Assembly (NCBI GenBank): GCA_029243485.1
Contig: JAQWRY010000086.1
Coordinates: 186,001-250,000 of the forward strand
Direction of reading: 5' to 3'
Length of the DNA stretch: 64,000 nt
Origin: Candidatus Binatia bacterium
GTDB taxonomy: Bacteria; Desulfobacterota; Binatia; UBA12015
The notes beneath the pieces were generated by a model, which saw only the letters and a list, made by a program, of their open reading frames with translations, made no database searches and was not told the DNA's origin. Positions 55,210-58,700 of the stretch are shown piece by piece (within the stretch, counting starts at the first letter, position 1; each line of letters starts with the position of its first letter). The translations under genes and the position numbers were made by a program.

Positions 55210-56735
55210 TTGGATCCCTCTCGCCATGCGACGTCGTCTGCGATGCGCGCCCGATAGGATGCGACCTCGCTCTCCCGACGCTCGTCGTTCCAGCCGGCGC
55301 GTTTGCCAACGATCTCCGCCACACTTTCCACGTCCCCGAGACCGTTGTCCTTCGCGAAAAGATTCGCGCGAACGCGGCGCTCGAGGACATCGGTGACCGT
55401 CAGAGCACACTCGTCTTCGATCGCCGCATCGATGTCGCCGACGTCGACGGTCGAGCGAGCCATCGCGGCTGCGTTCCCGTCTTCGACGAGCGGAACCTGC
55501 GCGGTTCGGCAGGCTTCCGCCGAGCGGCCGATTCGCTCGATCACCTGGTCGACTACACGCTCGCCCATCTGGCGGTACGTCGTGAGCTTTCCGCCGCCAA
55601 TGGAGAGCAGACCGTTGGGCTCGATGAGGATCTCGTCGCGACGAGAGATCTCCGACGGCGACTTCCCCGCCTGCGCCACGAGCGGTCGAACGCCCGCCCA
55701 CGCCCCCCGGATGTCGTCGTCGCAAATACGCGCTTCCGGCCACGTCGTGTTCGTCGCGTGGAGTAGGTAGTCTACATCCTCCCGCGTGATCGCCGGCCGC
55801 TCCTCCGGCTTCGGATAAAACGTGTCCGTCGTCCCGATCCAGACGATGTCGCCGTGGGGAACGACGAACGCCATGCGGCGATCCTCTGCGTACATCACGA
55901 CAATGTCGTCCACCGGCAGGCGCTCGCGGGGGATCACCAGATGAATGCCCTTCGTCAGCTGGATGCGCGCGGTGCAGTCACCGCCGAGATTTCGCACCTC
56001 ATCCACCCACGGCCCCGCCGCGTTCACCACGACCGAAGCTTCGATCGATGCTTCCTTGCCCGAAAGCTCGTCTCGCACGCGAACCCGAAGCCCGTTCGAC
56101 GAGGAACTCCCACCGTTCCCGGACATCGCGCTGCTGATCTCTTCGATGTTCACCGCGGGTGCGTAGTTCGCAACGAGTGCGCCGTGGCGTTTGGCGGATT
56201 TGAGCGTCTCGAGCGTGAGCCGGGCGTCGTCGGTGATGTACTCAGTGTAGACAGCCGCGCCTTGGAGGCGGTCCGGCTCAAGCCCGCCGATGTGCGAGAG
56301 CAGCTCGTCGCGCTTCCAAATCTCGTGACGATCTTCGGCCTCGATCTTCGCCATCTTCTCGAAGCTCCACATCCCTGCACGAAGCTTCACGAGACCTGCC
56401 GCCGTGCGACCGTGCACCGGCACGACCATCCGTGCGCTGAGGGCCAGGTGGGGTGCGATCTCCGTCAGGCAGCGACGCTCGCGGGCGGCTTCGATCACGA
56501 GGGAAATATCCCCCTGCGCGAGGTACCGGAGGCCGCCGTGAATCAGCTTGGAGGACCGGCTCGACGTGCCCGACGCGAAGTCGCCGCGCTCCACGAGCCC
56601 CACCCGCAATCCACGCATCGCCGCATCGCGAGCGATCCCCGCACCGGTGATTCCGCCACCGATCACCAGCAGCTCCAGGGGAGCTCGCCCGAGTTCGGTC
56701 AGGTCGTTCTCTCTAGTCTCGATCGAGAAGCTCAG
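55206..56735 (-). CDS. glpD: Glycerol-3-phosphate dehydrogenase (FAD-dependent); likely CTG start
   Basis: About 509 aa from CTG 56735. The FAD motif LELLVIGGGITGAGIARDAA, the family signature SSKLIHGGLRYL and GGKLTTYRQMGERV identify GlpD. It oxidises glycerol 3-phosphate to DHAP at the membrane and passes electrons to quinone. The first ordinary start, GTG at 56666, would remove the first beta strand. CTG at 56735 restores it, overlaps the previous gene's TGA as CTGA and lies 8 nt after GGGAGAG. It is coupled to the alkyl-DHAP synthase-like gene. Confidence 0.9.
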   Translation of the reverse strand: MSFSIETRENDLTELGRAPLELLVIGGGITGAGIARDAAMRGLRVGLVERGDFASGTSSRSSKLIHGGLRYLAQGDISLVIEAARERRCLTEIAPHLALSARMVVPVHGRTAAGLVKLRAGMWSFEKMAKIEAEDRHEIWKRDELLSHIGGLEPDRLQGAAVYTEYITDDARLTLETLKSAKRHGALVANYAPAVNIEEISSAMSGNGGSSSSNGLRVRVRDELSGKEASIEASVVVNAAGPWVDEVRNLGGDCTARIQLTKGIHLVIPRERLPVDDIVVMYAEDRRMAFVVPHGDIVWIGTTDTFYPKPEERPAITREDVDYLLHATNTTWPEARICDDDIRGAWAGVRPLVAQAGKSPSEISRRDEILIEPNGLLSIGGGKLTTYRQMGERVVDQVIERIGRSAEACRTAQVPLVEDGNAAAMARSTVDVGDIDAAIEDECALTVTDVLERRVRANLFAKDNGLGDVESVAEIVGKRAGWNDERRESEVASYRARIADDVAWREGSK

Positions 56736-57127
56736 TAGCCCATCTCTCCCAGACGATCGTCATCGAAGCCGAAGAAGTGGCCGACCTCATGCACGACAGT
56801 GCGTCGAATCTCACGGCAAAGGTGATAGTCGTCCGTGAAATCCTCAGACAAGGGAAAGTAGTAGATCACAATCCGGTCGGGCAAGGCCGCATGCAGGCCG
56901 TCCCGCTCGCCCAGAGGCGTCCCGTGATAGAGGCCATAGAGGGAGTCGAGCTCCGGGTCGAGACCGAGATCGAGCAAGGTCTCCTCGTCGGGCTCGTCTT
57001 CCACGAAGACCGCGACGTTCTCCAGATGTTTGGCAAGCGCTAGCGGAATCGTATCCAGAGCCTCTGCGACGATCTTCTGAAAGCGCTGGCGCGTGACCCA
57101 CGGCTCTGGATGGGGAGATCGCGCCAT
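56732..57127 (-). CDS. Minimal zincin metalloprotease (Zincin_1/DUF1025-like)
   Basis: The 131-aa protein has VVHEVGHFFGFDDDRLGEMGY, the HExxHxxG-type zinc motif with Asp as third ligand, at the C-terminus. The N-terminal part (RQRFQKIVAEALDTIPLALA) and the central DRIVIYYFPLSE match the single-domain 'minimal gluzincin' group. Its substrate is unknown. It is the first gene of the glpD operon, coupled by CTGA. The ATG at 57127 lies upstream of a 344-bp gap. Confidence 0.87.
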   Translation of the reverse strand: MARSPHPEPWVTRQRFQKIVAEALDTIPLALAKHLENVAVFVEDEPDEETLLDLGLDPELDSLYGLYHGTPLGERDGLHAALPDRIVIYYFPLSEDFTDDYHLCREIRRTVVHEVGHFFGFDDDRLGEMGY

Positions 57128-57222
57128 GGCGGTGGTTTAGCACAATGCGGCGATATCTCGCCGGATTCTCGAATGGCTATGCGCCATGGGGGGCTAGACA
57201 GCGCGCAATTTCGAACCCGCCG

Positions 57223-57238
57223 TGGCACCAGAGTTGCA
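57223..57238 (+). promoter_or_regulatory. Near-perfect sigma54-like -24/-12 promoter
   Basis: TGGCACCAGAGTTGCA matches the TGGCAC-N5-TTGCA consensus at every fixed position, with GG-N10-GC spacing. Transcription would start near 57249 and run into the 43-codon ORF and then the VOC-ZIP-GT genes. It is the best sigma54 match I saw in the window. No rpoN or enhancer-binding protein gene is present to confirm it. Confidence 0.5.
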
Positions 57239-57273
57239 GAGTCGTACATGCACTCCCGAGGAGGTTGAGGAGG

Positions 57274-57405
57274 ATGCGGTGGGGGGACAACTCGGGATGT
57301 CGTCCGGACGGCGCGCAGAGGGCTTGCTGCAGCTGCGTGGCAAAAACGGGTTTGTGGGGTGTGGGGTGGGTGTCTCTCTGCCGCCGTCCCCGGACGATGC
57401 TGTAG
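57274..57405 (+). CDS. Putative 43-aa Cys-rich micropeptide
   Basis: The ATG follows GAGGAGG (57258-57264) by 9 nt and lies about 25 nt after the predicted sigma54 start. The product has five Cys, including ACCSCVAK, several Trp and Arg, and no similarity I recognise. Cys and Trp enrichment is odd for random GC-rich sequence, but such short ORFs are often chance. If real it could be a metal-binding or redox peptide, or a leader. Confidence 0.35.
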   Translation: MRWGDNSGCRPDGAQRACCSCVAKTGLWGVGWVSLCRRPRTML

Positions 57406-57471
57406 CGCGTAGGAATGCGGCCCTGAGAGGGGCCGCTTGCGCGCAAATGGGGCGTTCGCGACAGTAAGCGG

Positions 57472-57939
57472 ATGTCGGAACGACCCTTCTCGATTCTCGG
57501 ACTCCAACAAATCGCCGTCGGCAGCACTGACAAGAACAATCTTCGTCGGCTGTGGATCGACATGCTCGGCCTGGACCTCCACGGCAATTTCCGCAGTGAA
57601 AAGGAAAACGTCGACGAGGACATCGCGGTGACGGGAACCGGCGTGCACCAGGTCGAGGTCGACCTCATGCAGCCGATCGATCCCGAAAAGCGCCCCAAGG
57701 TCCACGATCCCGCCCTGAATCACATCGGACTCTGGGTGGACGATCTCGCCAATGCCGTGGCGTGGCTCGAAGGCGAGGGGGTTCGGTTCACCCCGGGCGG
57801 CATTCGGAAGGGCGCCGCCGGCCACGACGTCTGTTTCATCCACCCCAAGGGAAATGAACAGTCCCCGATCGGAGGCGAAGGCGTCCTGATCGAGCTGGTC
57901 CAGGCCCCGGCCGACGTCATCGCGGCACACGCGGGCTAG
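57472..57939 (+). CDS. VOC-superfamily protein (glyoxalase fold)
   Basis: The 155-aa protein has one or two VOC beta-alpha-beta units: [58 protein letters not shown] and [12 protein letters not shown]. The normal first metal His is replaced by Gln-Gln, while His, His and Glu occur in later strands. It may be a methylmalonyl-CoA epimerase-like or lactoylglutathione-lyase-like enzyme; the substrate is unknown. The ZIP gene follows after 23 bp. Confidence 0.8.
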
Positions 57940-57962
57940 AGCGCCCTTCTTCAGGCCAGACC

Positions 57963-58700
57963 ATGCAGGGGCTCCTCGTGACCGGGCTCGCCGGCGCGAT
58001 CACTTTCGGCGGTGGACTGATCGCACTCCGCACCCAGGTGCACCGCGGGGCGGTCTACGCGTTCTGCGCGGGTGCGCTGATCGGAACGGCCCTGCTGGCG
58101 CTCATTCCCGAGGCGCTGGAGTTGGCCGCGGGAGCAGGGCACGACCCGCACTCGCTGCTGATCTCCACAGTCGTCGGCTTCTTCGTGTTTTACGTCCTCG
58201 AGAACCTCCCCCATCGCGAGGCGTCCCACCCCGACGTCCTTCATCACCACCATGGGCACCCCACGGGACTCTGGGCCGCGGCCGGGCTCGCGGTGCATAG
58301 CTTCATCGACGGCGTGGCCATCGGCGAGGCCTTCGATGCGACGTCCGGCTTGGGTTGGTCGCTCGCGCTCGGCATCACGCTGCACAAGTTCGCTGATGGC
58401 GTGAGTGTCACCGGGGTCATGCAGGGAACCCAGCAGAGCCACCGCGCGACGATCGGAATGCTGACGTTCGCCGCCTTGGCGCCACTCGCCGGCGTGCTCG
58501 TCGGTCCGATGCTCGAAATCTCTTCCGGTGTGCGCTTCTTGCTGCTCGGATGGTTCGCAGGCGTGTTCTTGTATCTCGGCGCGACGAGTCTTCTCCCGGC
58601 CGCGCATGAAGCCGGCGGCTCGCGCTGGCTCACCGCCTACGCGATCAGTGGAGCCTTCTTCATCTATGTCGGGCAGGTTTTGAGCGGCCACCTCGGCTGA
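57963..58700 (+). CDS. ZIP-family metal transporter
   Basis: The 245-aa protein has about eight hydrophobic helices. The central metal motifs are HSFIDGVAIGEAF and HKFADGVSVTGV, and a His-rich loop (DVLHHHHGHP) lies between helices 3 and 4, all typical of ZIP/ZupT zinc or iron importers. It brings divalent metal into the cytosol. No metal-responsive regulator is nearby. The gene lies between the VOC protein and a membrane glycosyltransferase with short gaps (23 and 12 bp), so they share a transcript. Confidence 0.92.
   Translation: MQGLLVTGLAGAITFGGGLIALRTQVHRGAVYAFCAGALIGTALLALIPEALELAAGAGHDPHSLLISTVVGFFVFYVLENLPHREASHPDVLHHHHGHPTGLWAAAGLAVHSFIDGVAIGEAFDATSGLGWSLALGITLHKFADGVSVTGVMQGTQQSHRATIGMLTFAALAPLAGVLVGPMLEISSGVRFLLLGWFAGVFLYLGATSLLPAAHEAGGSRWLTAYAISGAFFIYVGQVLSGHLG

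Follow-up and report, generated by a model that had tools for sequence, protein, structure and literature searches.

The RNA CrcZ of Pseudomonas is under sigma54 control and carries a CA-rich motif. According to the available sections of PMC4063720, it exemplifies regulation by an RNA that binds an RNA-binding protein. Pxr of myxobacteria is presented, in the accessible parts of PMC5568312 and PMC5684412, as an intergenic sRNA with several stem loops, apparently transcribed from its own sigma54 promoter, in a host devoid of hfq. From the available text of PMC11187230, CJnc230 (FlmE) of Campylobacter jejuni is an RpoN-dependent sRNA in an organism possessing the CsrA-FliW system. RNAs of the CsrB, CsrC and RsmZ type are decoys of CsrA, a protein whose SELEX consensus is given as RUACARGGAUGU in papers available in part, and RNAs of the CsrB/C type have been predicted by software in Geobacter (PMC11934962, partial text).

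The locus analysed here lies in a window of 64,000 nucleotides (the whole stretch of DNA that was analysed) from a Candidatus Binatia bacterium, a lineage known here from metagenome-type assemblies only. We consider it quite probable that this locus encodes a stand-alone sigma54-dependent sRNA of about 150-190 nt. Most likely, judging from comparison of related genomes, the product is a previously undescribed regulatory RNA with two hairpins, presumably acting in trans, and not a tiny metal-binding protein. The lineage, in which Hfq has no match, would thereby gain an sRNA family supported by phylogeny together with its promoter. A literature search returned nothing describing this RNA by title or by the start of the abstract, most subscription papers lying outside its coverage. 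The features discussed below are the following:

56732-57127, minus strand, zincin-like metallopeptidase gene (Pfam PF06262), divergent, constant neighbour
57148-57163, no strand, 16-bp palindrome CGGCGATATCTCGCCG, candidate site for an activator (enhancer-binding protein)
57223-57238, plus strand, sigma54 -24/-12 promoter TGGCAC-CAGAG-TTGCA, predicted from sequence, conservation and the presence of rpoN
57252-57300, plus strand, hairpin H1 with a long G/U-rich loop, supported by covariation
57274-57405, plus strand, 43-codon ORF, ATG at 57274 to TAG at 57405, judged non-coding
57301-57396, plus strand, hairpin H2 with a long stem and a G/U-rich loop, supported by covariation
57417-57436, plus strand, G+C-rich hairpin without a T-run, from folding, tentative 3′ end of the RNA
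57472-57939, plus strand, VOC/glyoxalase-like gene (Pfam PF13669), neighbour only
57963-58700, plus strand, ZIP transporter gene (Pfam PF02535), neighbour only

Among published RNAs, Pxr appears to be the nearest analogue that we met. The likeness lies in an own sigma54 promoter, an intergenic position, stem loops, a changing further neighbourhood and a host without hfq. As far as the available text describes it, Pxr differs by its length of 108 nt, its three stem loops and its place beside the response-regulator gene nla19/pxrR, whereas the RNA of the window has two hairpins with G/U-rich loops and lies beside a zincin gene, its other neighbours being VOC, luciferase-like, sulfatase or MFS genes; the two are set apart by this description. 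CrcZ acts on Hfq, for which no match (PF17209) was found in any of the 14 genomes of the family, and the loops of the present RNA are G/U-rich, not CA-rich. FlmE, in the part of its description that is available, resembles it as an RpoN-dependent sRNA alongside a CsrA-FliW system, but is processed from the flgE mRNA, whereas the RNA of the window has its own promoter and no adjoining flagellar gene.

The TGGCAC-N5-TTGCA motif that the first-pass annotation had taken for a sigma54-like promoter is indeed there at 57223-57238, and rpoN, on which that proposal depended, was found in the window's genome. By itself the motif proves little, because its exact form is about as frequent genome-wide as expected by chance (5 matches in 6.5 Mb, where the reversed control has 3). 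The weight of the promoter call comes from conservation, i.e. from the same box on the same strand. The box is fully kept in all four genomes of the genus, g1 (G000, the window's own, to G003), and plus-strand boxes scoring 9 to 11 of 11 are present at the zincin locus in 9 of the 14 family genomes, at 94 to 158 bases from where the divergent zincin match ends. These nine are G000-G003, G005 (genus g3), G006 and G010 (g4), and G007 and G011 (g5), the two g5 genomes having the weakest boxes (scores 10 and 9). At the other five family loci (g2 and g6), the best score in the stretch 50 to 220 bases from the zincin match was at most 8 of 11, and the same ceiling was found over the same stretch at 16 outgroup loci from other families of the class, the ones for which loci were made among the 45 outgroup genomes where zincin had a match. 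The scan covered 30 loci with true flanks; at locus L029 (G009), with a short flank of 469 bases, the best score was 6. Since rpoN is present in all 14 family genomes, those without the promoter and RNA do not lack sigma54. We conclude that the sigma54 promoter predicted here is real and conserved across four genera. From the usual spacing to the box, transcription would start near 57248. No sigma70-like promoter was found on either strand within 57100-57600. The palindrome at 57148-57163 precedes the -24 element by 75-78 bases in all four g1 genomes, with a paired change in G003, and was not found at the five other family loci with a box. A function for the zincin gene, which flanks it on the side away from the box, is conceivable as well.

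Downstream of the box, base pairing is conserved. In the four g1 sequences, H1 and H2 together comprise 40 pairs, of which 7 are changed on both sides, a number that none of 500 shuffles reached, and sliding the partner strand lowers the proportion of paired cells from 96.8% to 39-50%. When the nine RNAs of the four genera were aligned by sequence alone (MAFFT), 29 pairs were retained, 9 of them changed on both sides (unmatched in 500 shuffles), and 86% of cells were paired, against 43-53% in slid structures; slid structures still gave 2 to 6 double-changed pairs, versus 9 for the real scheme. For the 7 outermost pairs of H2, only the g1 rows contain letters. Because the structure was derived from g1, the five genomes outside this genus bring more independent support, and RNAalifold run on the two g5 RNAs alone yielded four double changes, of which two fall within the long stem. 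Assignment to the plus strand, the one that the promoter would read, rests on the promoter and on the excess of G-U over A-C cells in paired columns (16 to 5). Folding energies lend the RNA little support: z-scores, computed on fixed 150-nt stretches that cut off the end of H2 in G010 and G006, ranged from -2.6 to +0.6 (control mean -0.16, 1 of 72 controls below -2); in 7 of 9 genomes z was lower for the antisense strand. No intrinsic terminator was detected on the plus strand within 57100-57600. A known Rfam RNA was ruled out, no covariance model of release 15 matching the 56700-58000 region at E up to 1. G-quadruplexes in the loops were not convincing either, with 91 two-tier patterns for 75.0 expected (56 of 500 shuffles as high) and 3 three-tier patterns for 2.4.

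The elements of a gene pointed out by the first-pass annotation exist as sequence: GAGGAGG occurs twice, at 57258-57264 and 57267-57273, the second copy touching the ATG at 57274, and the 43-codon ORF contains 5 Cys, 3 Trp and 6 Arg. An intact frame behind a purine-rich stretch could yield a small Cys-rich protein, micro-metallothionein or leader peptide, and in G002 a similar peptide is read in a shifted frame from a GTG, with a score of 166 (self 254), and runs on into the VOC gene. Elsewhere only fragments resemble the ORF, 25 residues in G001 (score 85) and 27 in G003 (score 67), and the peptide similarity over G001-G003 appears no greater than DNA similarity would give. The ATG is absent from its column in G002 and G003, and all three genus relatives have frame-changing indels. 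Outside the genus, scores against the ORF do not exceed 45 in any frame (shuffles: 95th percentile 40, maximum 52). Substitutions between G000 and G002 fall 4, 7 and 2 times in codon positions 1, 2 and 3, and Pfam has no match for the ORF. The start, frame and Cys pattern that a small metallothionein-like protein would conserve are thus not conserved, the start and frame not even within the genus; what is conserved instead is base pairing. We therefore rejected the metallothionein and leader peptide, since the reading frame is not conserved, and hold a protein product to be very improbable: the ORF exists as a string and does not behave as a gene. The locus illustrates how a structured G-rich RNA can give rise to a small Cys-rich ORF as a by-product.

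The first-pass annotation had also placed the element ahead of a ZIP gene, correctly for the window, where the VOC gene and then the ZIP gene lie downstream of the ORF, and had deduced a possible metal-sensing leader. Hairpins acting in cis on a VOC and ZIP operon, for example in response to metal, would agree with the position of the VOC gene, which starts about 75 bases past H2 on the same strand. All four genus genomes also have a same-strand VOC gene downstream (beyond a luciferase-like gene in G003), and a same-strand gene follows in 6 of the 9 genomes. However, the identity of the following gene varies between genomes: VOC then ZIP lie directly behind in 3 of 9 only (G000-G002), a luciferase-like oxidoreductase gene is downstream in G003, G005 and G010, and in three genomes the first recognised gene downstream is encoded on the other strand, a sulfatase gene in G006 and an MFS transporter gene in both G007 and G011. 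The sole constant neighbour is the divergent zincin gene, present in 14 of 14 family genomes. Because the downstream genes change, and in three of the nine genomes have the opposite orientation, we regard the RNA as a separate unit. Synteny thus makes a cis-acting leader of VOC and ZIP improbable, despite the VOC gene downstream throughout the genus.

The distribution of the element is narrow. The intergenic DNA of the window was found in the three other genomes of the same genus, with no match in the 54 other genomes of that search. The RNA model R2 had one match in each of the nine genomes used to build it and none in the other 139 of the 148 class genomes, with strict filters that may lose weak matches; no homolog outside the family was thus retrieved. 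The exact promoter and H1 pattern was present on three contigs of the species-genome collection, which we take to be those of G001-G003. The RNA appears confined to one bacterial family. The sRNA reading is drawn from the conserved -24/-12 promoter in genomes with rpoN, the secondary structure of two covarying hairpins conserved without a conserved frame, the changing downstream genes, and the single match per genome within one family only. Points against it are the weak folding energies, the lower antisense z, the double changes in slid structures and the lack of a clear terminator. As a side observation, at locus L028 (G004, genus g2), TGGATTCCCCCTTGCA is followed by GGGCAGAGAGG about 130-175 bases upstream of the zincin match, at the position of the box; judged by eye, these are possibly a decayed remnant of the promoter and of the H2 stem.

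As to how such an RNA may work, an enhancer-binding protein would switch on the sigma54 RNA polymerase under some signal, and the RNA would act in trans. Its two G/U-rich loops, with their repeated words of the GGAYGUGG type, would mediate this action. These words are enriched in the nine RNAs: 26 GGAYG for 9.9 expected (part of the g1 count falling in the H2 stem), 7 GGAYGTGG for 0.6 and 52 GTGG for 31.5, each count being unmatched in 500 shuffles. When every genus was represented by a single genome, a first set gave 11 for 4.1 (2/500), 3 for 0.2 (0/500) and 23 for 14.0 (2/500) respectively, and a second set 9 for 4.5 (18/500), 3 for 0.2 (1/500) and 24 for 14.4 (0/500). Neither plain GGA (48 for 46.0 expected) nor ANGGA (4 for 5.8) was enriched in the nine RNAs, so that the multiple ANGGA sites in hairpin loops of a CsrA decoy were not found. 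The repeated G-rich words in loops nevertheless recall the CsrB, CsrC and RsmZ decoys, and GGAYGU is similar to the last part of the SELEX consensus for CsrA quoted above. Differences from these RNAs are the unenriched GGA and ANGGA, the presence of two hairpins only, the lack of an Rfam match, and an own genome without a CsrA match.

The RNA could thus be a decoy, titrating a GGA-reading RNA-binding protein such as CsrA. This is suggested by the enrichment of GGAYG and GGAYGTGG, the co-occurrence of CsrA with the RNA and the lack of an Hfq match and, granted that the RNA is an sRNA, we propose it tentatively. Alternatively, the G/U-rich loops could pair, without Hfq, with C/A-rich stretches of several mRNAs, the repeated GUGG words being possible seeds; for Pxr of Myxococcus, whose host lacks hfq, targets were predicted by pairing (PMC5684412, available parts). 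Such antisense action is a reasonable possibility for which the lack of an Hfq match in the 14 genomes is unfavourable, and it leaves the co-occurrence with CsrA unexplained. We would place the decoy slightly ahead, pairing being nearly as likely. If the decoy reading is true, sigma54 signalling would be linked to post-transcriptional control in bacteria without an Hfq match. More speculatively, in deltaproteobacteria-like hosts without Hfq, a sigma54 activator would use this new RNA family to relieve CsrA, or another protein reading GGAYGUGG. A sigma54-controlled decoy of this kind, itself a doubtful proposition, would resemble CrcZ but aim at a different protein.

CsrA has a match in 9 of the 14 family genomes, namely in 8 of the 9 RNA-bearing genomes and 1 of the 5 others, so that presence or absence of the two agrees in 12 of 14; few independent events underlie this agreement, which may be due to chance. 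The two exceptions are G012, with a weaker CsrA match and no RNA, and, of greater weight, G000 itself (97.5% complete), with the RNA and no CsrA match. Together with the unenriched GGA and ANGGA, they speak against CsrA as the partner, and CsrA could also be controlled in another way, by a FliW-like partner whose gene adjoins csrA. The order in G002 is Flagellin_N (FlgL-like) gene, csrA, fliW; by reading, G001 does not differ in this. G000 has no match to the FlgL-like protein either, while its relatives G001-G003 have both CsrA and FlgL-like matches (L053, L054, L085, L086, L090); either flagella were lost in G000 or the assembly has a gap. A strict flagellar link was ruled out, since G005 (RNA and CsrA) and G000 (RNA) both lack a FlgL-like match. 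Given the case of G005, the RNA follows CsrA slightly better than it follows flagella. Finally, the two g4 genomes, G006 and G010, have two CsrA matches each, one beside a FlgL-like match and one on another contig.
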